Shown: positions 1,843 to 33,775 of the stretch, piece by piece
Layout: each line of letters starts with the position of its first letter
Numbering within the stretch: position 1 is the stretch's first letter
Source: Thermoanaerobaculia bacterium
Lineage (GTDB): Bacteria; Acidobacteriota; Thermoanaerobaculia; Gp7-AA8
Reading direction: 5' to 3'
DNA: 64,000 bases
NCBI GenBank assembly: GCA_017883205.1
Contig: JADGNZ010000026.1
Location: 1 to 64,000, forward strand
Notes under the pieces: generated by a model
The model's database searches: none
What the model was told of the DNA's origin: nothing
What the model saw: the letters and a program-made list of their open reading frames with translations, nothing else
Translations under genes and position numbers: made by a program

Positions 1843-1952
1843 TGGGGGGTCGGAGAAGTATCCGGCTGCGCATCGATTCTCTGCTAGGACTGCCATCGCC
1901 AGTCCTAGCTTTTCTCCGACTCCCGACCCCCGGCTCCCGACTCCCGCGCCTC
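1843..1952. repeat. family E palindromic repeat
   Basis: An inverted repeat with GGGTCGGAG-type left arm and GACTCCCGACCCCCGG-type right arm; each arm is itself a short tandem repeat of GGGAGTCGG / GGGTCGGGAG. It overlaps the C-terminal codons of the glycosyltransferase-like gene, which therefore ends in a repeat-encoded tail. Other copies lie at 6631-6770, 47160-47220, 48180-48228 and 55198-55392. Confidence 0.7.
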
Positions 1953-2531: not shown

Positions 2532-2533
2532 GG

Positions 2534-3322: not shown

Positions 3323-3329
3323 TTTTTGG

Positions 3330-3385
3330 GTTTGTAGGTTGCTGGGTTGCTACGGTCTTACAAAGCAACCGAGCAACCCAGAACC
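3330..3385. repeat. family H palindrome (GGTTGCTGGGTTGCT)
   Basis: A palindrome between rny and ymdB. The left arm GTTGCTGGGTTGCTACGG faces GCAACCGAGCAACCCAG, so both arms consist of a repeated GGTTGCT unit. It could form a hairpin in the rny-ymdB transcript. A partial relative lies at 56307-56345. Confidence 0.7.
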
Positions 3386-3392
3386 CTCACAA

Positions 3393-6776: not shown

Positions 6777-8419
6777 CCCGCTTAGCTTGCTTCTACGTTC
6801 CGATGTTTGCGCTGGCGGCACGGCTGCGCAGCGAGCCCGATCTGCTCCACGAAGCGGTCGGCATCGTCGAAGGGAACGGGAACAATGCACACATCGTCGC
6901 CGCCACGAGACGCGCGCGGCAGAAAGGCATCCACGCGGGACTCTCGCTGACGCAGGCTCGCTCGCTCCTGCCAAAGTTGATCGCCCGCGGCCGTGACGCC
7001 GAATGCGAGCGCACCGCGCAGGAAGCGCTGCTCGAAGTCGCCGAGTCATTCTCGCCACGCGTCGAAGACGCCGGTGAAGGGGTCGTCTTTCTCGATGTGA
7101 CAGGGATGGAGAGGCATTTTGCTGATGTGGGGAGTGACGTAGGTCGGACTCTCCAGTCCGACATCGCGAGCAGTCGGACTAGAGAGTCCGACCTACGTTC
7201 CCAATCCCCCGAGACCCGCCTCGCCCGCGCAGCAATCCGCGCATGCGAAGCGGTCTCGCTGCCGGCGCGCGTCGGCATTGCGGCGAGCAAGCTGGCGGCG
7301 CGCGTGGCGGCGGAGTTGCCGAAGTCGCCGAATGTTGTCGCGGCCGGCGAAGAAGGGACGTTTCTCGCGCCGCTTCCGCTCACGCGTCTTTCGCCGGAGC
7401 TCGAAGCGGCGGCAATGCTGCAGCGTTTCGGGCTCTCATCGATCGGCGACCTGGCCCGGCTCCCGGAAAGCGAGATCGCCAGCCGGCTCGGCGAAGTCGG
7501 GCGCGAGCTTCACTGGGCCGCGCGCGGCATCGATCCGCGGCCCCTCATGTCTCGCGCGCTTCCGCCGGAGTTTCGCGAAGGGATGGAGCTGGAATGGCCG
7601 CTCGTCGCCCTCGAGCCGTTTCTCTTCATCGCCAACGCCGCGCTCGATCGCCTCGCCAAGCGGATGGAGATCCAGGGCTTCGCTTGCAAGCGGCTCGAAT
7701 TCACGCTGACGCTCGATCCCGACGGCTACGACGCTCGCGGTATCGACCTCCCTGCACCGACGCGCGACGTCAAGACGATGCTGACACTGATGCGCCTCGA
7801 TCTCGAGAAGACCCCGCCCGGCGCACCGGTGGTCGGCTTCTCCTTCGTCGCCCACCCTGACAGGCCCCGCCGTGCGCAGCTCTCGCTATTCGGTCCGGCT
7901 GCGATGTCGCCGGAGAAGTTGGCCACCACGATCGCCAAGCTCGTCGCACTCCTCGGCGACGGCCGCGTCGGCATGCCGATGACGGTCGATGGCCATCTCC
8001 CCGAACGTTTTGCCATCAGCGATTTCGATCCTCCCCCACCGCCTGATGTCCGGCGCAAACCGTCGCGTGCGCGCGGCCTGCTCGCTGTCCGCACATTTCG
8101 TCCTCCCATCGCGATCGAAGTGACAACGCGCGAGACGTCGGATAAAGAAACCCAGATCGCCTCAATCCGCACCATCGCCAACTCCCACCCCCCACTCCCC
8201 ACTCCCCACTCCCCGAAACGCGTTGAAGTCGGCGCCACGATCGAGATCGCCGGCACGGTGCGCATTTGCTCCGGCCCATGGCGTGTGGAGGAAGGATGGT
8301 GGAGCGACCGTCCCGATGTCCGCGAGTACTGGGATGTCGAGCTCGAGCGCGGAGGCGTCTATCGACTCTTCCGCGGTATGGCCGAGGATTGGTTCGTTGA
8401 TGCGCGATACGAAATGTAG
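6773..8419 (+). CDS. imuB: ImuB, Y-family polymerase-like protein
   Basis: The 548-residue Y-family polymerase homologue that recruits DnaE2 to the clamp in ImuA/ImuB/DnaE2 mutagenesis. The N-terminus MTRLACFYVPMFALAARL matches ImuB, which lacks the first catalytic carboxylates. GIHAGLSLTQARSLLP, VVFLDVTGMERHF, the HhH region LSSIGDLARLPESEIASRLG and the little-finger part follow. Two stretches are repeat-derived insertions: about residues 122-142 (family D palindrome) and a PPLPTPHSP stretch near residue 470 (family F). Both lie in loops, so the fold could tolerate them. The start overlaps the imuA stop. Confidence 0.88.
   Translation: MTRLACFYVPMFALAARLRSEPDLLHEAVGIVEGNGNNAHIVAATRRARQKGIHAGLSLTQARSLLPKLIARGRDAECERTAQEALLEVAESFSPRVEDAGEGVVFLDVTGMERHFADVGSDVGRTLQSDIASSRTRESDLRSQSPETRLARAAIRACEAVSLPARVGIAASKLAARVAAELPKSPNVVAAGEEGTFLAPLPLTRLSPELEAAAMLQRFGLSSIGDLARLPESEIASRLGEVGRELHWAARGIDPRPLMSRALPPEFREGMELEWPLVALEPFLFIANAALDRLAKRMEIQGFACKRLEFTLTLDPDGYDARGIDLPAPTRDVKTMLTLMRLDLEKTPPGAPVVGFSFVAHPDRPRRAQLSLFGPAAMSPEKLATTIAKLVALLGDGRVGMPMTVDGHLPERFAISDFDPPPPPDVRRKPSRARGLLAVRTFRPPIAIEVTTRETSDKETQIASIRTIANSHPPLPTPHSPKRVEVGATIEIAGTVRICSGPWRVEEGWWSDRPDVREYWDVELERGGVYRLFRGMAEDWFVDARYEM
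7137..7198. repeat. family D palindrome inside imuB
   Basis: ACGTAGGTCGGACTCTCC-type left arm, short loop, then GAGAGTCCGACCTACGT. It is in frame within imuB and adds about 20 residues. Full copies lie at 36968-37049 and several at 47262-47403. Confidence 0.85.
8178..8216. repeat. family F tandem repeat (CCCCACTCCCCACTCC) in imuB
   Basis: A short direct repeat of CCCCACT units in frame in the C-terminal part of imuB. Related G-rich or C-rich runs occur at 32939-32970, 33689-33722 and 47123-47150. Confidence 0.6.
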
Positions 8420-8428
8420 TGACTGAGT

Positions 8429-8504
8429 GATCCGCAGATGACGCAGATGAGCGCAGATAAAGGCGGCAACCGGCATCTGCGCCTATCTGCGTCATCTGCG
8501 GATC
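8429..8504. repeat. family C palindrome carrying the dnaE2 start
   Basis: GATCCGCAGATGACGCAGAT and its complement form a near-perfect palindrome, each arm repeating a GCAGATGA unit. It spans the imuB-dnaE2 junction and contains the only ATG codons in frame upstream of the conserved part of dnaE2. Confidence 0.85.
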
Positions 8505-11500
8505 AAAAGAAAGCACGGCCATACGCAGAGCTGCGATCGGCTAGCGCGTTTTCCTTTCTCGACGGTGCGAGTCTTCCCGAGGATTTGATTCACAACGCCG
8601 CGCAAAAAAATATCCCGGCGATGGCGCTCATCGACACGAACGGCGTCTACGGTGCGCCGCGGTTTTACGGGGCGGCGAAGAAGGCGGGGGTGCGCGCGAT
8701 CGTCGGCGCCGAGGTCGTGCTCGGGAACGAGCAGCAAAAGCCGGGACTGACCCTCACGCGCATGGACGCCGCGCGCTCGAATGCGCGCGAAACGCGGCTC
8801 ACGCTTCTCGTCGAAAGCCATACCGGCTACCGCAATCTCTGCAAGCTCCTCACTGCCGGCGCGCTCGACCGCCCGAAGGCACAAGCGCGATTCACGTGGG
8901 ATCTCATCGCGCAGCACGCCGAGGGTCTTCATTGCATCACCGGCGGCGATGAAGGACCGCTGGCGCATGCGCTGGCGAAGAGTGGTGTCGACGATGCTGA
9001 AAAACTGCTGCACAAGATCAGTGGCATCTTCAAAGGGCGCACGCACATCGAGCTGCAGCGCCATCATCGGCGCGACGAAGAGCATCGCAACATCGTCCTC
9101 GTCGATCTTGCCCGCCGCTTTCACCTCCCGCTCATCGCCACGAACGGCGTTCGCTATGCAAGTGCTGCGGACAAAGAGCTGCACGACGTCCTCACCTGCA
9201 TCCGGGAAGGAAAGCATGTCGACAGCGCCGGCCGGCTCCTCGGCGTGAACCGCGAGCGCTTCATCAAAGGTGCGGATGAGATGGCCGTGCTCTTCGCCGA
9301 TCTCCCCGAGGCGCTCGATGGTGCCTGGAAACTCGCCAATACGCTCGACTTCACGCTGGCCAACCTCGGCTACCAATTCCCTGAGTACCCAGTGCCCAAC
9401 GGCGAGTCGCCCATGTCGTTCCTTCGCAAGATCGCATGGAACGGCGCGACCACGCGCTTTCGTCCGCTGACCGCCAAAGCACAGGCGCAGATCGAAAAGG
9501 AGCTGGCTACGATCGAGAAACTCGACCTGGCCGGCTACTTCCTCATCGTCTGGGACATCGTGCAGTTCTGTCAGCGCGAGAAGATTCTCGTGCAGGGACG
9601 CGGCTCGGCGGCCAACAGCGCGGTCTGTTACGCGCTCGGCATCACCGCAGTCGATCCGGTTTCGATGGAGCTGCTGTTCGAGCGTTTTCTATCCGAGGAG
9701 CGGGGCGAGTGGCCGGACATCGATCTCGATCTGCCGTCGGGCGATCAACGCGAGCGCGTCATCCAGCACGTTTACCAAACGTACGGCGTGTACGGCTCGG
9801 CCATGACCGCGAACGTCATCACGTATCGCGACCGCTCCTCGGCGCGCGAGGTCGGCAAAGCGCTCGGCTTCTCGCTCGAACAGGCCGACAAACTCTCCAA
9901 GACGCTCGGCACATGGAACTTCGGCGAGATCCGCGAGCGGATGGAGTCGATGCCGCAGGAGCTCGCCGGAGCAGGCTTCGACCCGACCGATCTGCGCGTG
10001 CAGCACTTCATGCGTCTTCAACTGCAGATCCAGAATCTGCCGCGTCACCTCGGCCAACACTCAGGCGGCATGGTGATGGCCCGCGGCCGTCTCGATGAAG
10101 TCGTGCCGCTCGAGCCGGCAGCCATGCCCGGCCGCGTCGTCATTCAGTGGGACAAAGACGACTGCGCGGACCTCGGCATCATCAAAGTCGACCTCCTCGG
10201 CCTCGGCATGCTTGCAGCGATCGAAGAAATGCTCCCGCTCATCCGCACGAACGAAGGCATCGATGTCGACCTCGCGCATCTGCCACAGGACGACAAGCGC
10301 GTCTACAAGATGCTCAACGAAGCGGATACGGTGGGCATGTTTCAGGTCGAGAGCCGCGCGCAGATGGCGTCGCTGCCGCGCAATGCACCGGCGAAGTTTT
10401 ACGACATCGTCGTTCAGGTGGCCATCATCCGTCCCGGCCCGATCGTCGGCGGCATGGTCAAACCATTCTTCGACCGCCGTCAGGGCAAAGCGCCGCTCGA
10501 GTATCCGCACCCGTGTCTCGAACCGATCCTCCGCCGAACGCTCGGCGTGCCGTTGTTTCAAGAGCAACTTCTCCGCATCGCCATGGTGGCCGCCGACTTC
10601 ACCGGCGGCGAGGCAGAAGAGTTGCGCCGCGCCATGGGCTTCAAACGATCGATGGAGCGGATGGGCGAGATCAAAAAGCGGCTGCGCTCGGGCATGACAA
10701 AGAACGGCATCGATCTGCCGGCGCAGGATCAGATCGTGAAGTCGATCACGTCGTTTGCGTTGTACGGCTTCCCCGAATCGCACGCGGCCAGCTTCGCGCT
10801 GATCGCTTACGCCAGCGCGTACCTGAAAGCGCATCATCCTGCCGCGTTCTACACCGCGCTGATGAACGCGTGGCCGATGGGCTTCTATCATCCCGCAACG
10901 CTGATCAAGGATGCAGAGCGCCACGGAGTGACGGTGCTGCCGATCGATGTGAACCACTCCGGCTGGCATTGCCGCTGGGAGCGCGGCGCGGTCCGCCTCG
11001 GCATGAAGTTCGTGAAGGGATTACGAGAGTCGGCGGCGCGATCGATCGAAGCGTCTTCCCCATTTAGAAACGCCGACGATCTTGCGCGCCGGGCGATGCT
11101 GCGCGACGATCAACTCACCAAGCTCGCCTTCGCCGGCGCCCTCGCCTCCCTCGGCCTCAAACGCCGCGCGTCACTCTGGCAGGCAGCACAGGCAGCGAAG
11201 GCGGCGGGCGAGCTATTCGAAGGCGTTGCGCCGTCCTCAACGGAATCCCCTCTCGATGAGATGGCGCCGGGCGAGGAGACGCTCGCCGACTACGCGGCGA
11301 TGGATCTGACGACGGGCCTTCACCTGCTATCGCACTTCCGTCCGCAACTGGCACGCGATGGCGTCTTCACCGCAAAGCAACTGACGAAACTGGCGAATGG
11401 AAGACGCGTCGCCACCGCCGGCGCAGTCATCGTCCGTCAGCGTCCGGGAACCGCAAAGGGATTCGTTTTCCTGACGCTCGAAGATGAAACCGGTATCTCA

Positions 11501-11674
11501 CAAGCGATCGTGAAGCCTGCTCTCTTCCGCGATCATCGCGCGCTCATCGTCGGTTCGCCGGGCCTGATCGTCGAAGGCGTACTGCAGAACGAGGATGGCC
11601 AGTGCTCCGTGCGCGCGGACAAATTCTGGTCGCTGGACGGAATCGGCGAAATGGCGAGCCACGACTTCCATTGA
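8438..11674 (+). CDS. dnaE2: error-prone DNA polymerase DnaE2 (ImuC)
   Basis: The catalytic subunit of the SOS mutasome: a C-family polymerase alpha of 1078 residues, normal for DnaE2. PHP domain, then the palm with PDIDLDLPSGDQRERV (catalytic aspartates) near residue 427, QGRGSAANS upstream, FQEQLLRIAM and the AMGFKRSMERMG finger, then a C-terminal OB fold. In the PHP region the usual ELHCHS metal motif reads ELRSAS, so the exonuclease/PHP site is lost. The ATG start lies inside a family C palindrome; the first ~27 residues are repeat-encoded before the conserved YAEL. The start is 18 bp after imuB. Confidence 0.93.
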   Translation: MTQMSADKGGNRHLRLSASSADQKKARPYAELRSASAFSFLDGASLPEDLIHNAAQKNIPAMALIDTNGVYGAPRFYGAAKKAGVRAIVGAEVVLGNEQQKPGLTLTRMDAARSNARETRLTLLVESHTGYRNLCKLLTAGALDRPKAQARFTWDLIAQHAEGLHCITGGDEGPLAHALAKSGVDDAEKLLHKISGIFKGRTHIELQRHHRRDEEHRNIVLVDLARRFHLPLIATNGVRYASAADKELHDVLTCIREGKHVDSAGRLLGVNRERFIKGADEMAVLFADLPEALDGAWKLANTLDFTLANLGYQFPEYPVPNGESPMSFLRKIAWNGATTRFRPLTAKAQAQIEKELATIEKLDLAGYFLIVWDIVQFCQREKILVQGRGSAANSAVCYALGITAVDPVSMELLFERFLSEERGEWPDIDLDLPSGDQRERVIQHVYQTYGVYGSAMTANVITYRDRSSAREVGKALGFSLEQADKLSKTLGTWNFGEIRERMESMPQELAGAGFDPTDLRVQHFMRLQLQIQNLPRHLGQHSGGMVMARGRLDEVVPLEPAAMPGRVVIQWDKDDCADLGIIKVDLLGLGMLAAIEEMLPLIRTNEGIDVDLAHLPQDDKRVYKMLNEADTVGMFQVESRAQMASLPRNAPAKFYDIVVQVAIIRPGPIVGGMVKPFFDRRQGKAPLEYPHPCLEPILRRTLGVPLFQEQLLRIAMVAADFTGGEAEELRRAMGFKRSMERMGEIKKRLRSGMTKNGIDLPAQDQIVKSITSFALYGFPESHAASFALIAYASAYLKAHHPAAFYTALMNAWPMGFYHPATLIKDAERHGVTVLPIDVNHSGWHCRWERGAVRLGMKFVKGLRESAARSIEASSPFRNADDLARRAMLRDDQLTKLAFAGALASLGLKRRASLWQAAQAAKAAGELFEGVAPSSTESPLDEMAPGEETLADYAAMDLTTGLHLLSHFRPQLARDGVFTAKQLTKLANGRRVATAGAVIVRQRPGTAKGFVFLTLEDETGISQAIVKPALFRDHRALIVGSPGLIVEGVLQNEDGQCSVRADKFWSLDGIGEMASHDFH

Positions 11675-12115: not shown

Positions 12116-15100
12116 TCATGGACGGAGTTTCATCGTCGGATCGCCGAAGAGGATCCACGACTTGCGAACGTCGGGATCGGTAGCGGCGAATTTCGCTCGC
12201 GTAACGGCATCGCCGAGCGAGAGATTGACATCCGTGCGGAACAGTTGCTGGAACAGTGCGCGGCCCATCAAAGCCTGCTGATCCGGCTGGGTCAATGTCG
12301 ATGACGCCCACACTGCGACCGCTCCGCCATTCGGTGCCTTCAGCAACGCCTCGGCGAGGCTTTCCGAGAAGACATCGTGGAAGTAACCATTCAGGCAGTT
12401 CAACGTGATCACCACCGGAAGCTTGCTCCCATTGGTCAATGCGCTGGCGTCGGAAGAGACGAACACGTTCTCTGCCCACATCTCGATCGAAGCGTGACCG
12501 ATATACGTGGTGATCAATGAGCCGTTGTTCATTGCATTGACGACGTCGGAGTGCGCCGAGCTCGTCGTCGAGAAGTCGATGGTCTGGCTGGTTATCGAAG
12601 CCGGCATCAGCTTCGCCAGCGACTTTGCGACACCGACGAAGTCGAAGTCCACCGGCGCGTCGGCTACAAAGAGCGCACTCTTCGACCATGCACCACTCGG
12701 TGTTCCTCTCGATGTGATCTTGCCGATTACAAGCGACGCCTCGTCGGGAGTGCGAACCGGAATACGGCCAATAGGGATGTCAGCGATGCCGTCTCCATTG
12801 ATGTCCGAGAACCAGTCATCGGACGCCGTCTTCTGATAAGTCGTCGCTACGAGCTTCGTCGGCACGTAGTCGACCGACCCAAAACCGAAGTAGTCGCGCG
12901 GATCGATGCTGGCATCGCCGAGGAGCAACCCAGCAGAGGGGGTACGCTTCCAGCTCGCCGCCAGTTTGAAAAACGAACGAATCGCTTCCGGGGAGCGAAT
13001 ACCAAAATTGAACTCATCGTAGAGGTCTACCACATCGACGATCGTTGTCGCGGTTCCCTGAGCGTCTCGAACTGCCTTCAATTTCGCCGCTGCGGTAGTG
13101 AACAATTTGTTGCTGATAATGTAGAAGTCCGCAGGGCCTTTCGCACCGTTGCTGTTCCCGTTGGTATCGCTCAATGAGGACGGTGTATTGATGGCCAGCT
13201 CTGCCGGTGTGAGCAGCCGGGTATTGTCGAAGGCAAGAACGGTACGCGCGTTTCCGGCCAGGGTCGTGAACTTTGCTGCGAAGCCGCCTTGCGGATCGGC
13301 GGACACGGCCGTTTGAAGCTCCGTTGGGTGCTGCGAATCTGTAATGTCGAAAGCGCGGACCGCATTGGTACCGAAGCCGCCGATCGTCACCGCTCTTCCG
13401 CCAGGCAGATTGACGTCGAGTGCGCCATTGTCTGCTCGTAGAAGGTGCTGATAGGTGAGCTTCGCCTTGACGATCAGACTGACGTCATCATCGCCATTCA
13501 GTGAGGTGAGCGCGAAATTATTCACGCCTGCAGTCAGCCATGACTGCGGGAATTGGAACGTGAACGCGCGTTGCTCCGTCTTCTCGAGCGTCGCGGTGCC
13601 GATGCTGTGCCCATTGATCGCAACATCAATGCGGTGCGACATGTTGAGACCGCCCTGAATCAGAACGTATAGCGAGGCATTGCCTCCGTACGAGGTGTCC
13701 AGGTTGCTGACAGTCATTGGCTCGGTTGTGGTCCAGCTCCCGATTACCTGGCCAAAGAAGTTTCCTTCGTCGCCGTTGGTGGTCAGCCCGGCGAAGAAGA
13801 GACTTCGTTCGGTTCGCTGGCCTACGAAGGGGACACTTCCTGTGATCGGGTCGCCGCCCTTGACCTTTGAGACTGTTACGTTCTTCTCGCTGCCATTCTT
13901 CGGCCGGAGCCAGTACGTGCGAGCACCCGTTGAGATGGAGTCGAGGGGATAACCGTAAAACTCGATCGCATCATTCGCGTCGAACTTGCCGTCACCACCG
14001 TCATCGACAATGATCGACTGCTCCATACCCATCATGTAGAGCGAAAGGTGAAGATCTGATCCCGGATCGAAGCCCGCAGCCGCCATCGCCGCGCGCGTCA
14101 ACCGGTACCAGCCTTCCTGTGTTACGAAAATCTTCAGGCCGCTGTCGGCCGCAAGATCGAGTTGCTGCTTGTATTGCGCTGCGGTAGCGGCCTCCAGAGC
14201 GGTAGTGTGAGCAGCGCCGAAGCCATCAGGTGAAGTGAACACCTCACCATTTGCACCGAGACCCGGAAGTGGCGTCGTGTTGGGATCACCGACTGTCACG
14301 CCAGGAATCGGCGAAACCGGTCCATGCATCGTGTGTTTTCCGGCCGTATCGACATCCTCCAGCCAGTACTGCGCGAATGTGCCCGAGTCGAGCTTGTCGT
14401 CATACCGATAGTCGTGGCCAGCCTCGGAGTCGTTTTCCTTCGACTGCAGGGCCGTTCCGGCGATGAGGTGTTTATTGATTTTAGTCTGCTGCCCGCCAAT
14501 ATCCCTATAGAGATTGAAACCGAGGTTGTCGGATTCGAAGCTCGTCTGCCACGTAATGCGGACCTTCTTGTTGTCCTGCGTCACAGTGAAGTCGCGGAGA
14601 CGAACGAGCGTGACCGCGAGGACCGTCGTGTTGGCGGTAGATGAGTTGTTTCCCGGAACCGGATCGGGCTGCGTTGCCGTCACGGTGGCCGTGTTTGGGA
14701 TTACCCCAGTCACGGACGTCCGGACGATGAGGTCGACGAATTGCGAGTTGCCGACTGCCAATGTGCCCAGAGAGCAGGTGATCGTTGTTGTGCCGCTGCA
14801 GGTTCCAATACTCGGGTTCACGGAGACAAGAGTCATGCTTGCCGGCAACGTGTCGCTGACTTGTACGGTGGTCGCTATCGCTGGCCCGTTGTTGGTAACC
14901 GTCAGGCGATAGGTAACGAGTTGGCCGACGCCCACAGGATCAGGGGAATCCGTTTTGACGATGGCGACATCGGCGTTTGTGCGCGCCGTTACCAGTGTCG
15001 TCGCCGTGGCCGAGTCGTTGGGCGCGATGCTATTGGTCGAGGTCGTGCTGATCGTCGCCGTAGTGGTGAGCGTCGTGCCCGAAGCCGTGCCGTTGTTCAC

Positions 15101-18100
15101 TTGAACCACCGGATTGAACGTTGCGCTTGCGCCGGAGGCCAGAGATGCGATTGTGCAGGTGATCGTGCCGCCGGAGCCAACGGCGGGCGGAGTGCAGGCC
15201 CAGCCCCCGGGCACGACGAGCGATTGGAAGTTCGTCCCGGCCGGCAGCGGAATCGTCACGATGATGTTCGCGGCGGCCGCCGGTCCGTTGTTTGTGGCCA
15301 CCGCTGTGTAGCTGTAGTTCTGGCCCGGCTGGACGGGATCGGTACTGTCGGTGAGTGTGATGCCTACATCGCCACCGTTCACCACCGTGGAGGTGATGCT
15401 GGTAGCGTTGTTGGGCAGGTAGGAATCGGGGGCTGTGGTAGCGACGCTCGGCGATGCGGTGATCGAGGTACCGCCTGCGGTGCCCGCATTCACTTTCAAC
15501 GTCAATGGCATACTTACGCTTGCCCCGGACGCCATCGTCGGCCCACTGCAGCTGATCGTTCCAGTTCCACCGATTGCGGGTTGCGTTGGGCACGACCATC
15601 CGGCGGGAGGTGTGATGCCTTGGAACGTCGTGTTCGGCGGCGTCGTGATTGTGTAGCTTGGGCTGGTCGCATTCTCCGACCCATTGTTCGTGATGACCTG
15701 GGTATAGACGATGTTCCCACCAGCCACCGGATAATTCGTGTTCTGTGCGATCGTGATCGCCAGATCCGCATAGTAGCCAGGTCCGGCCTTAACGAGGGCA
15801 GTAGCAGTCGCTTGATTGTTCGACGGGTTGGAATCGGGCGTGTTGCTCGAGACCGAGTTCGTTTCCGACAATACATAGCCCGGAGGGACGTTCACGTCGA
15901 TCGTGGTTACGAGCGAGAAGTTCGCCGTGGCGCCGTTTGCGAGCGTAGGGGTTGTGCAAATGATCGTCCCTATGGAGCCGACCGCCGGGGATGCAGGAAC
16001 GCACGTCCAGCCTGCGGGAATGCTCATCGAGGCGAATGTCGTGCTGGCAGGAATCGGCATCATGTAGACGACGCCGTCGGCCGGGCTGGGACCGTTGTTC
16101 GTAACGGTTTGCGTGAAGGTAACGTTATTACCTGTTGTCTGCACGCCGGGGCTGGCTACATTCGTGACCGCCAGATCGGCGATCGCGCATGTCGCACCAT
16201 CGCCGCCGGGCAGAACGTTGTTGCCCGTGATCATCTCCACGACCCCGATCGTGCCGGGCTGCGCGCCATAGTGATCGTTGGCTGTCGTCGTCAATCCATT
16301 CGAGCCGCCGGAGACGTCCGTCGAGGCTCCAGCGGACGACAGAAGGATGTACCCGCCGCCACCGCCGCCTCCAGGTCCGTGACGCTCGCCGGGGCTTCCG
16401 GCTGGCGCTGTGGTCAGCCATGTATTGCCGCCGTTTCCTCCCTTGGCCTGAACCGTCAGGCCGGAGAGGGTTCCCATCTGCGTCGTCACGAGCACCGATC
16501 CGCCTGCGCCGCCGCCACCCGCACCATCACGGCCGGTGTTGTAGGCGTTCAATCCGTTTGCGGTCAGAGTGGCCGTGCCGGTGGCATTCAGGGCGCGGAT
16601 GATGATGATTCCGCCGCCATTGGCGCCGCTGCTGTAGTAGCCATTCGCGCCGGCTTCCGTGTCCGCCCAATCGCCGGCCACATTCACCCGGCAGGTAGGC
16701 GGAGCAACGCATGTCTCGGCCGACGCATTATTGGTAGTGCCCGCACCGCCGCCACCACCCAGGTCGATGCGCGTGAGACGCGGGGAAATCGGGCCTCCGC
16801 CCTGGCCGCCGGACGGGCAATTGCAATTCCAGCCGTTGCCTCCCGCGCCGCCCGAACCACCGTTCGCGCCGCCGCCGCCGCCGCTGTTGTCGTCATTCGC
16901 CGGAGGGTCGCCGTCTGTCGAGCCGCCGCCAGCGCTTCCCGGCGCGCCTCGGCCATAACTGCCGGCGACGTAACCTTCAACTCCCGTGTTGAGCGGCGCG
17001 TTTCCTGACGTCGGAGCTCCGATCGTCGCGCCGTGCTGATACACGTAGTGCGGCGTTCCGCTGATGCCTTCACCCTTCGATCCATTCGTCGTCAGCGTCG
17101 ACAACGTACGGAAATCGGTGGATGCCAGACCGGCAGTGGCATCGCCCGTCAGGACACGTCCCCCACCGCCTCGGAATCCCATGCCGTCAACGGAGACTGT
17201 GGCACCACCCATGGTCACCGTACCGCTGACGTCGATCGCCAGAACGCCGCCGGTCGCGCCGTTCCAGGCAAGCGCAGTCAGTGTCGAGGTCAGTGTCGCA
17301 GTCGTGTATTGCGGAACACGGATGATCTGGTACGTGCGCTGTCCCTGGGTAGTGGTACTGGCGAACGGCTGGTTGGTGTAGCTATAAAGGAGGCCACCTC
17401 CGGCGCCGCCGCCGGTGAAGGTGAACGCGCCTGCCGCGCCCGTGACCGTGTTGGTCGCGACCACGTACTCCCATCGTCCCGCGTTGTTGAGGCTCGTCGC
17501 AGCACCGCTGCCGGTTCCGGTGGCTCTCGTCGAGCCCGTGCCTTCACCGTAGGTTTCATCATTGGTGGTATCGAATGCCGCATCCTGCATCTGCATGACG
17601 ATGACGAGATCACCGGCATTGATGTTGATCCCTGCTGCACCTGCGGCACGCGCACCAACGTTGAACGTGGTAGCGCCGGTGGCGACACTGGTCGTGCTTC
17701 CCGGCCAGTAATCATTCTTGATTCCCGTGAGGGTTCCGCCCGCACCATCCTTGCCAGGATTCGCGCAGATCTTTCCTTCGGCGAGTGTACGGACAGTCTC
17801 CGAGGAGGTCGGCGTTGCCCCGCCGGTGTAAGTGAGCGTGGCAACGTTCGCGACCGTACCCGCCGTGGTGGGTACCACGGTGATCGTGAAGGAAGCAGAG
17901 GTCGCGCCGGCGGCCAGCGCGCCGACGTTACAGGTCACCGGACCTGTACCCGTGCAGCCGGTCTGCGAAACGAACGTGCTACCGGCGGGGATCGCATCCG
18001 TGATCGTCACGCCGGCGACTGCCGCGGCGCTGTAGTTGGTCGCACTGAGCGTGTAGGTAACGGTGTCTCCGGTCTTGACGACGTCCGCGGACGCAGTCTT

Positions 18101-19516
18101 CGTTAGAACGACCGGAACCATATGCAGAGGCACAGCCGTGATCGCGAAGCCCATGCTGGCGGGTCCCGCCTCGCTCCAGAACATCGTCGTGTTCGCGTAT
18201 CCGCGGGAGCCGCTGCTGGTTCCGTAGAAATTGACGCCCGCGTGAAGAACTTCCCAGCGCTTGTCCTGGGTCGGCCCCGGATCGAGCGCAACGTTCGTGT
18301 TGTACGCCACCGCGTCGACGACATAGTCGTACGCGGAATTCGTGACGGCGACGGAGGGCTCCGTGCCGGCGCCAGCGTATAGGTTCTGCGCCGTGGCGAC
18401 AGTTCCCGTCGGCGTGTTCTGGTCAACGTTGCTGAAGGATTGAGCGCCCGCCGCAACGGTGAGCGACGTTCCGCCCGCGTTCGTGACATTGACGGTGACC
18501 GTGCTGGTCCCGCTGTTGGGGGACTTCAAGCCCCATAGCTCTGAGCGCACTGTGTTGGTGGAGCGGGAGATGCCTCCGAGAAATGTCATCGCTTGCGCGC
18601 CATACGTCACGCTGCCGACCGCCTTGGCAACACCAGCGGTGCTCATCGTCACTTCAACGACAAGGTAGCGGTTCGCCGCCGTAGTCGTGGTGTGGTTCCA
18701 GGTCACGACGACCGGATTCGCAGTGGAGACGACTGCGGCCGCTACGCTGCTGGCCGCATCAAAGAGAATCTGCGGATTGGCCGGGTGCAGCGGTATGGCT
18801 ACGGCAGCCCACGTCGCCGAGGCGCCAGCCGTCCACGACATGACCGCGTTGGTAGAACCGGTCTCGATGCTTCCCGCGCCGGAAAAGGACGCGCTGACGA
18901 CGTTGAAAGGGTTGGTCTGTCCGGCTCCGGCCGTCAATGTGGCATTCGTGTTCAAGGCCACCGCGTCCACGACGTAATCGAAGGGCGAACTGGCGACTGT
19001 GACCGAAGGAGTCGTGTTCGTGTTAGTGGCCGCGACCGCCGTACCCGGCGCCGAGGTCTGGAAAACATTGGTGAACGACTTCGCTCCCGCAATGACGACG
19101 GTGCTCTGCCCTCCGGCATTGGAGACGGAGACGGTAATCTGGTGCGTACCGGCAGCCGGGCCAGCCAGACCCCACAACTCCGCACGATCGATGGTGTTCG
19201 TAGTGCTCGTCGAGGAGCCGAGGAAGGTCATCGGCACTGTCGGCCCACCGGCCTCCGTGCCGTACGTCACGCCGGTTACCACCTGCGAATTACCACCGTT
19301 CCTGTCGATGGCAACGCTGACCACGATGTAGGGTTTCTTGGCCGAACCGACTGTGTGATTCCAGGAAACCGTGACCGGTGCGCCAGTCGAGGTCGTGGCT
19401 GCCGCGACAGAAGCCGCGTCAAACACCACCTGCGCCGCGGCCGGCGAGGCGGCCGCGATTGCAAACGCCACCGGGACGATGACCGACCGGACAAAGCGAA
19501 ACGAAGATGCCTTCAT
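12116..19516 (-). CDS. giant secreted DUF11-repeat protein with C25 peptidase domain
   Basis: A secreted 2466-residue protein. It has a signal peptide (residues 1-29, ending ASPAAAQ), and two similar N-terminal beta modules with AVPLH ends. One DUF11 repeat (KTASADVVKTGDTVTYTLS) precedes a Gly/Asn-rich beta-helix-like section (about 600-1000), and several more DUF11 repeats follow. The C-terminal ~345 residues are a gingipain-type C25 cysteine peptidase with GHASIEMW (His about 2341) and TLNCLNGYF (Cys about 2374) as the catalytic pair. No sorting domain follows the peptidase. An AAGGAG Shine-Dalgarno precedes the ATG. It probably acts at the cell surface or outside. Confidence 0.85.
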   Translation of the reverse strand: MKASSFRFVRSVIVPVAFAIAAASPAAAQVVFDAASVAAATTSTGAPVTVSWNHTVGSAKKPYIVVSVAIDRNGGNSQVVTGVTYGTEAGGPTVPMTFLGSSTSTTNTIDRAELWGLAGPAAGTHQITVSVSNAGGQSTVVIAGAKSFTNVFQTSAPGTAVAATNTNTTPSVTVASSPFDYVVDAVALNTNATLTAGAGQTNPFNVVSASFSGAGSIETGSTNAVMSWTAGASATWAAVAIPLHPANPQILFDAASSVAAAVVSTANPVVVTWNHTTTTAANRYLVVEVTMSTAGVAKAVGSVTYGAQAMTFLGGISRSTNTVRSELWGLKSPNSGTSTVTVNVTNAGGTSLTVAAGAQSFSNVDQNTPTGTVATAQNLYAGAGTEPSVAVTNSAYDYVVDAVAYNTNVALDPGPTQDKRWEVLHAGVNFYGTSSGSRGYANTTMFWSEAGPASMGFAITAVPLHMVPVVLTKTASADVVKTGDTVTYTLSATNYSAAAVAGVTITDAIPAGSTFVSQTGCTGTGPVTCNVGALAAGATSASFTITVVPTTAGTVANVATLTYTGGATPTSSETVRTLAEGKICANPGKDGAGGTLTGIKNDYWPGSTTSVATGATTFNVGARAAGAAGININAGDLVIVMQMQDAAFDTTNDETYGEGTGSTRATGTGSGAATSLNNAGRWEYVVATNTVTGAAGAFTFTGGGAGGGLLYSYTNQPFASTTTQGQRTYQIIRVPQYTTATLTSTLTALAWNGATGGVLAIDVSGTVTMGGATVSVDGMGFRGGGGRVLTGDATAGLASTDFRTLSTLTTNGSKGEGISGTPHYVYQHGATIGAPTSGNAPLNTGVEGYVAGSYGRGAPGSAGGGSTDGDPPANDDNSGGGGGANGGSGGAGGNGWNCNCPSGGQGGGPISPRLTRIDLGGGGGAGTTNNASAETCVAPPTCRVNVAGDWADTEAGANGYYSSGANGGGIIIIRALNATGTATLTANGLNAYNTGRDGAGGGGAGGSVLVTTQMGTLSGLTVQAKGGNGGNTWLTTAPAGSPGERHGPGGGGGGGYILLSSAGASTDVSGGSNGLTTTANDHYGAQPGTIGVVEMITGNNVLPGGDGATCAIADLAVTNVASPGVQTTGNNVTFTQTVTNNGPSPADGVVYMMPIPASTTFASMSIPAGWTCVPASPAVGSIGTIICTTPTLANGATANFSLVTTIDVNVPPGYVLSETNSVSSNTPDSNPSNNQATATALVKAGPGYYADLAITIAQNTNYPVAGGNIVYTQVITNNGSENATSPSYTITTPPNTTFQGITPPAGWSCPTQPAIGGTGTISCSGPTMASGASVSMPLTLKVNAGTAGGTSITASPSVATTAPDSYLPNNATSITSTVVNGGDVGITLTDSTDPVQPGQNYSYTAVATNNGPAAAANIIVTIPLPAGTNFQSLVVPGGWACTPPAVGSGGTITCTIASLASGASATFNPVVQVNNGTASGTTLTTTATISTTSTNSIAPNDSATATTLVTARTNADVAIVKTDSPDPVGVGQLVTYRLTVTNNGPAIATTVQVSDTLPASMTLVSVNPSIGTCSGTTTITCSLGTLAVGNSQFVDLIVRTSVTGVIPNTATVTATQPDPVPGNNSSTANTTVLAVTLVRLRDFTVTQDNKKVRITWQTSFESDNLGFNLYRDIGGQQTKINKHLIAGTALQSKENDSEAGHDYRYDDKLDSGTFAQYWLEDVDTAGKHTMHGPVSPIPGVTVGDPNTTPLPGLGANGEVFTSPDGFGAAHTTALEAATAAQYKQQLDLAADSGLKIFVTQEGWYRLTRAAMAAAGFDPGSDLHLSLYMMGMEQSIIVDDGGDGKFDANDAIEFYGYPLDSISTGARTYWLRPKNGSEKNVTVSKVKGGDPITGSVPFVGQRTERSLFFAGLTTNGDEGNFFGQVIGSWTTTEPMTVSNLDTSYGGNASLYVLIQGGLNMSHRIDVAINGHSIGTATLEKTEQRAFTFQFPQSWLTAGVNNFALTSLNGDDDVSLIVKAKLTYQHLLRADNGALDVNLPGGRAVTIGGFGTNAVRAFDITDSQHPTELQTAVSADPQGGFAAKFTTLAGNARTVLAFDNTRLLTPAELAINTPSSLSDTNGNSNGAKGPADFYIISNKLFTTAAAKLKAVRDAQGTATTIVDVVDLYDEFNFGIRSPEAIRSFFKLAASWKRTPSAGLLLGDASIDPRDYFGFGSVDYVPTKLVATTYQKTASDDWFSDINGDGIADIPIGRIPVRTPDEASLVIGKITSRGTPSGAWSKSALFVADAPVDFDFVGVAKSLAKLMPASITSQTIDFSTTSSAHSDVVNAMNNGSLITTYIGHASIEMWAENVFVSSDASALTNGSKLPVVITLNCLNGYFHDVFSESLAEALLKAPNGGAVAVWASSTLTQPDQQALMGRALFQQLFRTDVNLSLGDAVTRAKFAATDPDVRKSWILFGDPTMKLRP

Positions 19517-19776: not shown

Positions 19777-20187
19777 CTACAGCAGAGGCTGTTGATGGAT
19801 CACCGATCGCAACCGACGAAAGAACGTCGTCACATAGAATATTATTTTCAGCAATCCGCGCGGGGCTCTCCAACCATTCACGCGGTGCTGCGCCACCAGA
19901 CGTCCGAGTACGTTTTCAGCCGCAAACTGCGCATCCGCCAGGAGCGAATTGTCGCCTCGGGTCACGATGCCACGGGGGCCGATACGAGCGATCCGATGCA
20001 ACGTCAGACCGCGAACCGTCCTCGCCAGAACGACGTCTCCATGCCTCAACGAGGAGAGGGCACATGGCTCGATCTCGACCATGTCGCCGCTCCGGATCGT
20101 CGGATACATACTGTCGCCTTCCGCGCGGAACCGAGCGCACTGACCCGAAGCCAGGAGCTCGCGCAGCGTCGTCTCGAACGTGTTCAC
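19777..20187 (-). CDS. S24/S26-family peptidase of the RiPP cluster
   Basis: A 136-residue signal-peptidase-fold protein. The nucleophile motif GDSMYPTIRSGD places Ser at residue 26, followed by HGDVVLAR and TLHRI (His 64), then TRGDN. The catalytic Lys of bacterial SPase I is not seen; a His in the LHRI position is the arrangement of the ER/archaeal type. A hydrophobic stretch near the C-terminus (LLKIIFYVTTFF) could anchor it in the membrane. It overlaps the kinase gene by 4 bp. The natural inference is that it cleaves the leader of the neighbouring precursor or of exported products; not shown. Confidence 0.75.
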   Translation of the reverse strand: MNTFETTLRELLASGQCARFRAEGDSMYPTIRSGDMVEIEPCALSSLRHGDVVLARTVRGLTLHRIARIGPRGIVTRGDNSLLADAQFAAENVLGRLVAQHRVNGWRAPRGLLKIIFYVTTFFRRLRSVIHQQPLL

Positions 20188-21062
20188 GCTGCGCTCCGGA
20201 TGCAGTCGATGACGGTGCGGTCCGGCACGAACCGCAGCGCGCGCACCGGCACCTCCGCCACGAGCCGATCGAGGATCCCGAGCGTGGCCGCCAGCGCCTC
20301 GGCGTCATAAAACGGCGGAAATGCGCAGCTGAACAGTCTGGCCGCAGCCTCGGCTGGTGCCACCTCGAGGAGCTCCGTCCGTCTGCTCTGCACAAGGAGG
20401 TGAATCGCCGCCAGTGGCGCAGACGCCGGCGAGGAGAGCTCGGCCTCGCCATGCCATGGCGTCCCGAACATCCGCCACTCGCCGTCGATGAAGCGAACGA
20501 TGACCCGATCGTCACTGACGATCTCGTAATCGCCCTCGGCCAGCCAGACGCGCGCGGTCGTCGACTTTCCGGCGCCGGACTGGCCCACGAAGAGCTGCCC
20601 CCGCCCGTCGCGGTCGATGATGCCGCAGCTATGAAGCTCGACGCCGCGCCCGCGTCCGAGGAGGTGCGCGACGATCACTTCGTCGAGCGGATAGTCGAGA
20701 GGATGCATCTCGTCGTTGAAGGTCTCGCGGCGAACGAGAATGCTGGCCTGCGAAAGATCATTGCTGAATAGCGCCACCTTGTAGGGAACAGCGCCAAAGA
20801 TCTCGCTGTGGCAGTCGATGCGGAAGCCATCATCGGCTGCGTAGGCGCGCCAGACAGCCCCCGAATCAAAGAGCAACTTGCCGGGAGCAGGCAGCGGCGC
20901 ATTCATCGGCTCGATGACGATGTCCATGTCGATGGGTCCATCGTCCGGCGCGATCGCGAAGCGGCTCATCGTTGGAGACAGCGGCCGGCGCAACGATTCA
21001 TCCGCATAACGAACGCGCAGAGTAAGACCTGCGATGCGGATGAGCTCAGATCGAGACAGCAT
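20184..21062 (-). CDS. HPr kinase-like protein of the RiPP cluster
   Basis: A 292-residue protein with the HprK/PEPCK-type C-terminal fold. The Walker A loop GQSGAGKST is at residues 160-168 and VSDDR at 182-186. The N-terminal half resembles other HPr-kinase-related proteins of PqqD/radical-SAM peptide clusters rather than true HPr kinase. The ATG at 21062 begins 7 bp after the precursor stop; an open frame upstream of it is only the shadow of the precursor gene. It may phosphorylate the peptide or a partner, or use ATP in export; this is inference from position. Confidence 0.75.
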   Translation of the reverse strand: MLSRSELIRIAGLTLRVRYADESLRRPLSPTMSRFAIAPDDGPIDMDIVIEPMNAPLPAPGKLLFDSGAVWRAYAADDGFRIDCHSEIFGAVPYKVALFSNDLSQASILVRRETFNDEMHPLDYPLDEVIVAHLLGRGRGVELHSCGIIDRDGRGQLFVGQSGAGKSTTARVWLAEGDYEIVSDDRVIVRFIDGEWRMFGTPWHGEAELSSPASAPLAAIHLLVQSRRTELLEVAPAEAAARLFSCAFPPFYDAEALAATLGILDRLVAEVPVRALRFVPDRTVIDCIRSAA

Positions 21063-21069
21063 CAAAGCT

Positions 21070-21240
21070 CTACGAACCCGCGGTCTGGCAGGCAAAACCG
21101 CCGCGGCAACCGCCGCCGCTGACCCCGGCCGATGCGTTTGTCTTGCAGAAGCCGAGGACTGCCTCTTCCGGACGGAGAGGAAAGCGCTTCGCCTCCGGCT
21201 TCTCATAGCGCTTCTTCGCGTTGCTTTCCTGTTTTTCCAT
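21070..21240 (-). CDS. RiPP precursor peptide (56 aa, three Cys)
   Basis: A 56-residue peptide too short for standard ORF calling. It starts with ATG after a GAGGAG Shine-Dalgarno with 6-base spacing. The leader is charged: MEKQESNAKKRYEKPEAK, then FPLRPEEAVLG (residues 20-30). The core is Gly- and Cys-rich: FCKTNASAGVSGGG, then CRGGFACQTAGS, with Cys at 32, 45 and 51. The KRYEKPE...LRPEEAVLG pattern is the kind of leader seen in putative radical-SAM-modified peptides. It lies 15 bp after the radical SAM gene and just before the kinase and peptidase genes, in the same direction. The modification could be Cys sulfur-to-alpha-carbon or other links; unknown. Confidence 0.8.
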   Translation of the reverse strand: MEKQESNAKKRYEKPEAKRFPLRPEEAVLGFCKTNASAGVSGGGCRGGFACQTAGS

Positions 21241-21255
21241 TTCGTTCTCCTCGAT

Positions 21256-22533
21256 TCAAAAAGCGGATACGCCAACGGTCGAACAACTGCCACATCCGCC
21301 GGTACCACAACCGGCCGCTGCCTCGTCGGACGGAGGCGGAATGGCGGCAATGCGGTCGGCTTCACCCGACTTGAGCGCTTCCGCGGCCTCGTAAACACGA
21401 TCGTGACCAATGCCGCCGAGGCAGTATTCGCACTCGCCGTGCGGCCGGACTGGAATGTCGAGCGTCATCGCCCGCAAATGCGCAACCTCGCAAAGGAAGT
21501 CGACAGGCGACTCGGCGTCACCATTCTCCAGCTCGCCGTTCGCGGCGCACATCCCGCACATCGACTTCAGCCCGCAGCCGGTGCACTTCGTCGGACGCGT
21601 GATCTTCCGCGAACGAACGCCGCGGATGTAGTCCTGCCAGCCTTCCTTGAAGTTGCCGTCGCGAACGTTGTAGGAATCCTGATGCGACAACACGCAGATG
21701 GAGAGTTCGCCGTAAGGATCGACAGCAAACGAGCTGATCCCGCCTCCGCAGTCGTAGAGCGGCTTCTTCGACGTGTCCTCGTAAACCGGCTGCGCGTGCT
21801 CCTTCGCCAGCCGCTTCCACTCCGATACATGCTCGGGATCATCGAGATCCAGCGCCACGATCTCCGACGGTGTAAGCCGCACGGCGAGCGGACTGGCCGA
21901 GCAATCGATGCGCGGGTTGATCATCGCGTCGAACTTGAACGGAATGCCGCGGTCCTCCGCCATCTGCCGCATCATCGGGATCTCGTGTTTGTTGATCGAG
22001 ACCGCGACCGTCTTGAGCTTCAGCGGGAGGTTTCGCTCGAGCAGCAGGTCGATCCCGCGCATGCACAAGTCGTAAGAGCCGGGAATCTGTGTCAGCTTCT
22101 CGTAGGTCTCGCGCGTGGCGCCGTAGAGTGTGATCTCCATGATGAACGGCGGGTGCTGCGCCAGGAAATCGGCAATCCGCTCGGTGATCATCGTCCCGTT
22201 CGTAAAGAGCGTGATGAGGAATCCCTTGCTCTTGGCGTAGGTGTAGATCTCGAGGAAATCGCGGCGCGCGAAAATCTCGCCACCGGTGAAGAGCAGCCAG
22301 AGGCAGCCCTGCTCTGCCAGATCGTCCAGCAGGCGCTTGTGCTCGGCGAGCGAGAGCTCGCGCACGCGCGCGGCGATGTCGTTCATCGGCAGATTGTTGT
22401 AGCAGTGCGAGCACGCCAGTGGGCAGCGGTTCGTCACCTCGATCGTGCCGTTGAGCGGCACGCGCGTGACCGCTCCTTCCTGGTGAACGATCAGGCTGAA
22501 GTCGCCGTACGTGCCTGTTTCGATCGCAGTCAT
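21256..22533 (-). CDS. radical SAM/SPASM peptide maturase
   Basis: A 425-residue radical SAM enzyme. The SAM-cluster motif CPLACSHC gives Cys 37, 41 and 44, followed by FTGGEIFARRDF. The SPASM domain supplies auxiliary cluster cysteines: YDCGGG, SICVLS, CTGCGLKSMCGMC and a later FLCEV and CEYC. The extreme C-terminus is unusual: CGTGGCGSCSTVGVSAF, Gly/Cys-rich and reminiscent of the precursor core. Its ATG overlaps the PqqD stop (ATGA). It presumably modifies the 56-residue peptide encoded immediately downstream, guided by the PqqD protein. Confidence 0.92.
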   Translation of the reverse strand: MTAIETGTYGDFSLIVHQEGAVTRVPLNGTIEVTNRCPLACSHCYNNLPMNDIAARVRELSLAEHKRLLDDLAEQGCLWLLFTGGEIFARRDFLEIYTYAKSKGFLITLFTNGTMITERIADFLAQHPPFIMEITLYGATRETYEKLTQIPGSYDLCMRGIDLLLERNLPLKLKTVAVSINKHEIPMMRQMAEDRGIPFKFDAMINPRIDCSASPLAVRLTPSEIVALDLDDPEHVSEWKRLAKEHAQPVYEDTSKKPLYDCGGGISSFAVDPYGELSICVLSHQDSYNVRDGNFKEGWQDYIRGVRSRKITRPTKCTGCGLKSMCGMCAANGELENGDAESPVDFLCEVAHLRAMTLDIPVRPHGECEYCLGGIGHDRVYEAAEALKSGEADRIAAIPPPSDEAAAGCGTGGCGSCSTVGVSAF

Positions 22534-22826
22534 TCACCCACCCTCCCCACTTCGCCGATGAGGTCCGCCGCTTCGAGCGAGCCCAGCAGCTCGCTCAGGT
22601 CGCGATGCGCAACCTCGGCATCGACATCATACTCGCGGCATATCGTGTCGACGACCGAGTCGTTGTCGCGCCCGTCGAGCAGCGACCAGATCCGCGCTGC
22701 CACCGGCGTGAAGACGTACACCGAGTCGAGATCGCCCACGCGATTGCGGATCGGGACCAGAATGCTTTCGTTCCCTACCTGTCGCAGAGCAAACTCCCCG
22801 CGGTGCTTGAACACGCGCTTATCCAT
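22530..22826 (-). CDS. PqqD-family RiPP recognition element
   Basis: A PqqD-like peptide chaperone of 98 residues that binds precursor leaders and presents them to the radical SAM enzyme. The family pattern is clear: ILVPIRNRVGDLDSVYVFTPVAA, then IWSLLDGRDNDSVVDTIC and a C-terminal helix. I took the ATG at 22826; an in-frame GTG at 22847 is the alternative. No Shine-Dalgarno precedes the ATG; a TACAAA -10-like hexamer lies right before it, so the mRNA may be leaderless. It is the first gene of the RiPP operon. Confidence 0.88.
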   Translation of the reverse strand: MDKRVFKHRGEFALRQVGNESILVPIRNRVGDLDSVYVFTPVAARIWSLLDGRDNDSVVDTICREYDVDAEVAHRDLSELLGSLEAADLIGEVGRVGE

Positions 22827-28156: not shown

Positions 28157-29284
28157 TCAATCACTCACGCGTCGGAACAACCGCAACACTCCCCGCACAC
28201 CGCGCCAGAGGTACAGCACCGGCAACAGCGCGACCGGCGCGGTCGGGAAGCTCTGCCGCATGAACGCCGCCGGAGGGAACGCCAGTTCGCGCAACCGGCG
28301 CATGCGTGCGCGCCAGGTGAGCGCTTTCAGATCGCCGCTGAGGAGCGCAGCGCGGGTGCGGGAGCGATCGAGGAAGGCGGCCGAGGGCTCATTGCGAAGA
28401 CGCTCGTCGTCACGAAGCCAGTCGGCTGCCCGGTCGTGCGACGTGCGCGCGAACCAATCCTCGGCCAGTGCAATCGAGCGCTCGCAGATCGTGACGAGAC
28501 GGCGTTCCGCGGCCAGGCGCCAGAACGCGGCATGCTCCTCCCGCGACATCCGCTCGCGCAGGAGATGAATGTCGCAGAGCCAGATCAAGCGCTCGTTGTC
28601 GTGATGATGCGCCACACGATGCAGGCAGGCCAGCAGGAGCGAGTCGCCGTGCGATGGCGCAAGCGCGTGCGCACTGATGCGAGGTACTCCGATGGCGCGG
28701 CGGAGGAGCTCGTCGAAAGGCAACGCGTCGCGGACCACCGGCGAGTTCGTCACATCCCAGTGCACGTCGTACACATGGCCCTCGCGGCGGAACGACTGCT
28801 GCCGCACGGCCAGCGAGTCGCCGCTCGTGAGGTGCGATTCGTAGCCGAGCTGGAGCATCAGCGCACGCACCGCCTCGCAATCCTCCTCCGCGATCAGCAA
28901 GTCGGTATCCCCTCGGGGACGCAGTTCCGGCGCGTCGTACACGTCATACGCGAGACCGGTTCCTTTGATGATGAGAACGCGGATCCCGCGGGGTGCGAAG
29001 GTATCGAGAAGTGAGCGAACATCGGCCAGACGCAATGTCTCCGCCGCGAAGGCGTGAATCGCCATCCCGCGCAGAGCTGCGAGAACCGGCCATGCCTCCC
29101 CCGCTGCGGAAAGCCGCGCGTAAACGAGCGGCCCGATGCCATGCTGATCGAGCGCTTCCAGCAGTTTCGCGGCGTCGTTGCTTGATGCCTCGGGCGGCCA
29201 CGGCGCAGCCTCGCCGCGCAACAGTGCGCGCAGCGGTGTCTGAAGGGAGAGAGGAATCGGCGGCGGATCGGGAACGTCGGCCAT
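28157..29284 (-). CDS. nucleotidyltransferase-fold protein (NTP_transf_5)
   Basis: A 375-residue protein with the PF14907-type nucleotidyltransferase core. The sequence RGIRVLIIKGTGLAYDVY then RPRGDTDLLIAEED shows the GDTDLLI metal-binding pattern (D-x-D). The C-terminal half is helical, with a HHDNERLIWLCDIHLL stretch common in this family. Such proteins are frequent near surface-polysaccharide and RiPP loci, but a substrate is not known. The start is the ATG at 29284 (a TTG at 29317 is possible). It lies between a family A palindrome and the divergent small membrane gene. Confidence 0.75.
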   Translation of the reverse strand: MADVPDPPPIPLSLQTPLRALLRGEAAPWPPEASSNDAAKLLEALDQHGIGPLVYARLSAAGEAWPVLAALRGMAIHAFAAETLRLADVRSLLDTFAPRGIRVLIIKGTGLAYDVYDAPELRPRGDTDLLIAEEDCEAVRALMLQLGYESHLTSGDSLAVRQQSFRREGHVYDVHWDVTNSPVVRDALPFDELLRRAIGVPRISAHALAPSHGDSLLLACLHRVAHHHDNERLIWLCDIHLLRERMSREEHAAFWRLAAERRLVTICERSIALAEDWFARTSHDRAADWLRDDERLRNEPSAAFLDRSRTRAALLSGDLKALTWRARMRRLRELAFPPAAFMRQSFPTAPVALLPVLYLWRGVRGVLRLFRRVSD

Positions 29285-29376
29285 CGGTGCGTCTGCCAAC
29301 CTCGGCTGCCGCCGCAATAGTTCACGAGTGCAGCTCGGAAGTGCGGCCTGGAGTTTGCTACTTCATCGATCCGAGT

Positions 29377-33091: not shown

Positions 33092-33478
33092 TCTCATGCA
33101 TGAGACCCCCTCGTCTCATGCGTGAGACTCCGAGTCTCATGCGTGAAACCCCGAGTCTCATGCGTGAAACTCCGAGTCTCATGCGTGAAACTCCGAGTCT
33201 CATGCGTGAAACTCCGAGTCTCATGCGTGAAGCTCCGAGTCTCATGCGTGAAACTCCGAGTCTCATGCATGAAACCCCCGAGTCTCATGAATGAAACTCC
33301 GAGTCTCATGAATGAAGCTCCGAGTCTCATGCATGAAGCTCCGAGTCTCATGAATGAAACTCCGAGTCTCATGAATGAAACTCCGAGTCTCATGCATGAA
33401 GCTCCGAGTCTCATGAATGAAACTCCGAGTCTCATGAATGAACCTCCGAGTCTCATGAATGACGCTCCGAGTCTCATG
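33092..33478. repeat. 21-bp tandem array 1 (CTCATGMRTGAAACTCC)
   Basis: About 18 copies of a 21-bp unit starting CTCATGMRTGAAACTCC and ending GAGT, with two 22-bp copies. Copies fall in blocks: GCG-type first, then GCA/GAA-type mixed. Internal dyads are TCATGCATGA and ACTCCGAGT. It lies between rplY and the exported gene at 33776, and encodes open seven-residue-repeat frames on both strands that I do not regard as genes. There are no spacers, so it is not a CRISPR. Confidence 0.9.
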
Positions 33479-33775
33479 ACACCAGATCAGCCTGGAGAGA
33501 TGGAAGCATGCGTAACTACATTCAGGCTCAGTAACTTCCAAGCATTGAACAAGGTACAGATGCCGTCGAGACTGCGGAATGGTGGCCGGAGTCGGATGTA
33601 AGCAGAGTTGAGCGTTAGTCACTCAAGTGAGGAGTGCGGGAATCGGAGAGAAGGCGGCAAACCCTCGCATCTTGCCATGCTGGCATCGCTCCCACCCCCC
33701 ACCCCCCACACCCACCCAAGCAACCTCGGCCACACCTCCCGCGTCATAACATCAAACGATCAACGGAGGATCAGC
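33479..33775. other. non-coding region with family F repeat
   Basis: No gene is seen. It holds a small TCACTCAAGTGA palindrome near 33619-33630 and a CCCACCCCCC-type family F run at 33689-33722. The Shine-Dalgarno GGAGGA of the next gene is at its end. Confidence 0.5.

Follow-up and report, generated by a model that had tools for sequence, protein, structure and literature searches.

A conserved radical SAM and kinase cassette of Acidobacteriota, probably a new RiPP family, associated with a giant exported C25 protease

The closest described relatives of the locus presented here are phosphorylated RiPPs. Linear polyphosphorylated peptides (LPPs) are made by the lpp cluster of Paenibacillus alginolyticus (Popov et al. 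2026, PMC13381572). They belong to Bacillota, are phosphorylated at Ser3, and carry the leader consensus YxxPxVLxHQxIxFETxxS, and the SipW-like peptidase LppS (S29/H68/D93) cleaves the YxxP leader with the help of an RRE (PMC13381572). Radical SAM enzymes, Acidobacteria, and gingipains go unmentioned in that paper (PMC13381572). Among lasso peptides, an HprK homologue phosphorylates the C-terminal Ser of paeninodin, and in pseudomycoidin a nucleotidyltransferase adds a hexose after phosphorylation (PMC8498205). Other HprK-like RiPP kinases phosphorylate Ser3 (PMC10368454; PMC13381572).

We analyzed a window of 64,000 nucleotides from a Thermoanaerobaculia genome. Five of its minus-strand genes form a cassette in which neighbors overlap or lie at most 15 bp apart, exactly as laid out in the preliminary description of this DNA. 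The gene for a PqqD-like RRE (22530-22826; 98 aa from its ATG, with an alternative GTG start possible at 22847) overlaps by 4 bp the gene for a radical SAM/SPASM maturase (21256-22533, 425 aa). The gene for the 56-residue precursor peptide (21070-21240) begins 15 bp past the radical SAM stop and is separated by 7 bp from an HPrK-like kinase gene (20184-21062, 292 aa), which overlaps by 4 bp the gene for a soluble peptidase of the S26/S24 type (archaeal/SipW-like; 19777-20187, 136 aa). We set aside a 602-aa plus-strand ORF across the cassette as an antisense frame of conserved genes. The cluster had been called complete, and its five genes stand, but position 19777 is not its end: comparative evidence assigns to it a giant exported protein encoded on the same strand (12116-19516, 2466 aa), with a signal-peptide-like N-terminus, DUF11 repeats (PF01345), and a C-terminal C25 domain (PF01364). 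The reading of these genes as a RiPP cluster is well backed by their conservation and order and by selection at the codon level. It was incomplete rather than wrong: it did not include the giant C25 protease, the invariant Ser at the C-terminus of the precursor, or the relation to the LPP family.

A single scan with the radical SAM protein yielded 80 related loci, or 81 with the window. They are mostly labeled Acidobacteriota, with some Myxococcales, Nitrospirae, Deltaproteobacteria, and others, and a Chloracidobacterium record (L065) has the cassette. So do L025 and L036, titled Bordetella parapertussis (metagenome bin), a title that is probably misassigned. Iterated profile searches recovered PqqD at 78 of the 81 loci; the corresponding numbers are 74 for the peptide, 71 for the kinase, and 66 for the S26-like domain, and many of the gaps are contig ends. 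Of the 75 loci whose radical SAM ORF is full-length, 62 yielded all five genes, in line with the conserved gene order that the preliminary description had named as a check. The cassette is a real, widely conserved bacterial peptide-making gene set. At L066, a second, different cluster with radical SAM, HPrK-like, S26-like, and NTP_transf_5-like genes (318-4825) lies about 4 kb upstream of the cassette.

The precursor, earlier proposed from the window alone, is a real gene, with 74 homologous peptides from the 81 loci accompanying the same radical SAM gene. In an ORF-based search of the 75 full-length radical SAM loci it was absent only from L031 and L083, and it lies directly downstream of the radical SAM gene except at L028, L062, and L066, where it is 1.6-1.9 kb off. 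In the window, a Shine-Dalgarno sequence (GAGGAG) stands 6 nt ahead of the ATG. The leader (residues 1-30; 21151-21240, minus strand) contains a YxxP motif and ends LRPEEAVLG, with cleavage predicted after Gly30, and the core (residues 31-56, FCKTNASAGVSGGGCRGGFACQTAGS; 21070-21150 on the same strand, stop codon included) has three Cys; the leader ending and core agree with the preliminary description. That description had also named codon statistics as a check. Between the window and two congeners, pN/pS is 0.2-0.5 in frame, whereas both remaining frames of the precursor strand give values of about 1 or higher, indicating purifying selection in the precursor frame only. Pooled over 113 pairs, pN/pS is 0.26 for the leader and 0.42 for the core.

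Conservation among the 74 peptides reaches from the leader to the last residue. The Tyr and Pro of YxxP, a Val, the first Cys and the Lys that follows it (core residue 3), the last Cys, and the C-terminal Ser are invariant; three Cys are present in 69 peptides, and core length varies from 23 to 29 residues. Ser occupies all 74 C-termini, compared with about 8% of ORF ends in general, and ten distant precursors also end in a hydroxyl residue (nine Ser, one Thr). The junction V-L-G-x-C-K is conserved, with residues -3 to -1 almost invariant and +1 variable. Signal peptidases follow a -3/-1 rule at their cleavage site, and this pattern also fits that rule. No Pfam or NCBIfam model matches the precursor, the best candidates for further copies in its own genome reach only E 0.36 or worse, and its motif was not found in the open papers searched. 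L139:7945-8151 encodes a peptide with weak resemblance to the precursor (WxxP, RPEEAVLLACK, Ser at the C-terminus), in a 16-kb stretch in which other cassette genes were not detected.

PqqD matches PF05402 at 54 bits, above the cut-off of 23.4, and its best NCBIfam match is the lasso PqqD-type chaperone, under that model's cut-off. A second PqqD match in the same genome (47.4 bits; contig C50:10418-10627, L002) lies within a 588-residue open frame. The radical SAM protein scores 68.7 bits against PF04055, above the Pfam cut-off. Across 75 homologues its CX3CX2C motif and all seven SPASM Cys are invariant, and the CxxC at 368/371 and that in the tail at 414/417 are present in 84-89% of rows. 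The Gly/Cys-rich C-terminal tail (GCGTGGCGSCS..., 21256-21320) is kept in most homologues and absent in several. No NCBIfam radical SAM equivalog reached its cut-off, and the same held for every model of the known PqqD-SPASM families. Scores of maturase models, given as bits against cut-off, were mycofactocin (94.5/265), PqqE (72.5/381), AlbA (59.1/850), PapB (53.6/340), and SkfB (45.3/300). SynChlorMet systems (ScmA-F) likewise combine PqqD-like, HprK-like (ScmC), and SPASM radical SAM proteins, and their models scored 30.7/125 (ScmC), 16.3/100 (ScmD), and 71.2/400 (ScmE). The GeoRSP and HPr-rel-A equivalogs (PqqD, radical SAM, and HprK) gave 26.3/100, 48.7/400, 17.4/35, and 16.2/200.

The kinase carries conserved GxSGAGKS/T (Walker A), SDDR, and GTPWHG motifs, and its structural model (pLDDT 95) matches PEPCK and HprK/P folds with modest TM-scores. 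These motifs and the predicted fold uphold the earlier HPrK-like call and carry the assignment, since the sequence score against Pfam Hpr_kinase_C (19.7 bits) is under the cut-off of 33.3. No kinase homologues were found on plasmids, and at L080 the C-terminal Ser is kept, yet no kinase gene was seen nearby. The peptidase matches PF00717 (Peptidase_S24) at 35 bits, above the Pfam cut-off, and TIGR02228 at 43.6 bits, under the cut-off of 51.85. Its Ser26, His64, and Asp79 are invariant in 29 sequences, and its model (pLDDT 93) has a fold matching LexA, UmuD, and signal peptidases, so that the S26-type call also stands.

Taken as a set, these proteins place the cassette nearest to the Bacillota LPP family, the closest characterized system, which has an RRE, an HprK-like kinase, and a SipW-like peptidase and lacks a radical SAM enzyme. 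Both have a discrete RRE, a YxxP leader, a kinase that is HprK-like in motifs and fold, and an archaeal-type peptidase with Ser, His, and Asp at similar spacing, which we predict to act as a leader peptidase. The LPP cluster also has an NTP transferase and an MsbA-like exporter, and NTP transferase and ABC transporter genes are adjacent to the cassette in some relatives. The cassette differs from LPP by its radical SAM enzyme, Cys core, C-terminal Ser, and giant C25 protease; its leader ends LRPEEAVLG rather than in the LPP consensus, and its core has Lys rather than Ser at residue 3. With phosphorylated lasso peptides such as paeninodin and pseudomycoidin it shares a split RRE, a YxxP-type leader, an HprK homologue, a C-terminal Ser, and, in some members, an NTP transferase (PMC8498205), but it differs in its radical SAM enzyme and Cys-rich core. 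We rejected a lasso peptide as the product; the B2 transglutaminase-like leader peptidase (PF13471) was not matched anywhere in the genome.

The giant protein is the sole C25 protein in its own genome. Its domain scores 248.5 bits against PF01364 (the gingipain family), and the catalytic His and Cys are conserved in YIGHA and NCLNG motifs. Unlike in gingipain-family proteases, the domain ends a giant DUF11-type exported protein and in relatives is fused behind a cytosolic-type S26-like domain. The S26-like domain and the giant form one ORF in 45 loci; in four fused proteins, and in that of L072, Pfam confirms a C-terminal C25 domain. In nearly all fused proteins, a hydrophobic stretch and a signal-peptidase-like site (often AxAQ) lie between the two parts, such that the leader peptidase would remain in the cytosol when the giant is exported. 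The giant is adjacent in 13 further loci: a separate neighbor in nine, upstream in two, and following without an S26-like gene in two. In distant subfamilies its position is immediately upstream, either of PqqD (L129, L130, L140) or, in L135, of the radical SAM gene. Some ten loci lack a giant within reach, which puts it outside the core chemistry. The fusions suggest a functional link between the modified peptide and the secreted C25 protease. A search for literature on C25 and DUF11 in Acidobacteria found nothing, and the L025 giant has PATR repeats besides C25.

Building on the genes, conservation, and fusions observed, we consider it likely that the cassette is a RiPP operon in which the precursor is bound by the RRE, modified by the radical SAM enzyme, phosphorylated on Ser56, and cut after Gly30, and in which the pathway is coupled to the giant. 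The PqqD-like RRE would bind the precursor through the YxxP leader motif, for which lasso peptides and LPP provide precedent. The radical SAM/SPASM enzyme would then modify the Gly/Cys core, with cross-links from the conserved Cys the most likely outcome. The kinase would phosphorylate the invariant Ser56, as in paeninodin, though this site is not certain because the other HprK-like RiPP kinases mentioned above act on Ser3. By analogy with LppS, the peptidase may cut the leader after Gly30 using Ser26, His64, and Asp79, releasing a peptide of about 26 residues. In Acidobacteriota, the pathway would be coupled to the giant, with the leader peptidase and giant often made as one polyprotein whose internal signal peptide would send the giant out while the peptidase stays in the cytosol. 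The weakest step of the proposal is what happens outside the cell, where the giant most likely acts on the finished peptide by processing or displaying it, or else is under its control.

The cassette probably defines a new RiPP family, found in Acidobacteriota and other groups, that appears undescribed. Its single parts are known, and their combination was not found in the papers searched, a set to which most subscription journals did not belong. It would join radical SAM chemistry to the phospho-RiPP logic of lasso and LPP peptides, and it would be a second setting for SipW-type leader peptidases. More tentatively, it may represent a RiPP class of its own, in which radical-SAM cross-linking goes together with C-terminal (poly)phosphorylation and the leader peptidase is made as one polyprotein with the giant, which uses or ligates the finished peptide at the cell surface or is controlled by it there; we hold this larger claim possible rather than probable.

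The alternative that fares best differs from the RiPP operon only in the role of the giant, and the likelihoods we attach to the two therefore overlap. Here the giant C25 protease would have the peptide as its substrate, its inhibitor, or a tag ligated to it, with the cassette controlling or decorating that protease instead of making a free product. The 45 fusions and the independent cases of adjacency speak for it. A sample of the phylum comprising 396 genomes shows the precursor in 34, C25 in 140, and both in 24, so that C25 is enriched with the precursor (24/34 versus 140/396 overall; Fisher p about 1e-5, kinship ignored). However, many genomes with C25 giants have no precursor, and the ten or so loci noted above have the cassette with no giant close by. 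We regard this role as rather unlikely, though it is the strongest competitor. That the Lys after the first Cys is a C25 cleavage site was set aside as unlikely, as the C-K pair stays invariant even in loci that have no giant nearby.

An ordinary sactipeptide or ranthipeptide bacteriocin, with thioethers formed by the radical SAM enzyme, an exported peptide that kills competitors, and the giant as a bystander, seems to us improbable. The three conserved Cys and the distant similarity of the SPASM enzyme to SkfB, AlbA, and PapB agree with it, and the combination of radical SAM and SPASM domains with a Cys-containing core recalls these maturases and CteB. However, the leader motif, kinase, and peptidase differ from those systems, and the maturase is far under every NCBIfam cut-off. 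The core is conserved across many genera rather than diversifying, the giant is fused or adjacent in most loci in independent arrangements, and the invariant C-terminal Ser and dedicated kinase would be left unexplained. A small-molecule cofactor pathway of the PQQ/mycofactocin type, with the peptide serving as a scaffold and a short modified piece being excised from it, would account for PqqD and the SPASM enzyme and for mycofactocin being among the better maturase matches, but it is very improbable given how far that score is under its cut-off, the conservation of the whole core to its last Ser, and the lack of a role for the kinase or giant protease.

Returning to the RiPP operon, further genes may be accessory to it. 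An NTP_transf_5 nucleotidyltransferase gene (28157-29317, minus strand; start codon uncertain) lies about 5 kb upstream of the cassette and is the sole strong PF14907 match in its genome. A homologue is found at a similar distance in L020, but membership is uncertain because the gene is not adjacent. In L031, L024, L066, L083, and L097 the cassette has an NTP_transf_5 gene after it, and in L131, L133, L136, L137, and L143 NTP_transf_5-like frames lie next to the PqqD frame or overlap it. ABC transporter genes are beside the cassette in L062, L083, and L097, and no exporter was seen adjacent to it in the window.

Elsewhere in the window, genes for RecA-like (ImuA-type), IMS/ImuB-type, and DnaE2-type DNA polymerase III alpha proteins stand in a row on the plus strand (5787-11674), an arrangement resembling SOS mutagenesis genes, and large polymerase-like genes are also nearby in L021 and L022. 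A short tandem repeat tract at 33094-33601 gives rise to repetitive ORFs on both strands (MRLGASFMRLG... and its antisense).
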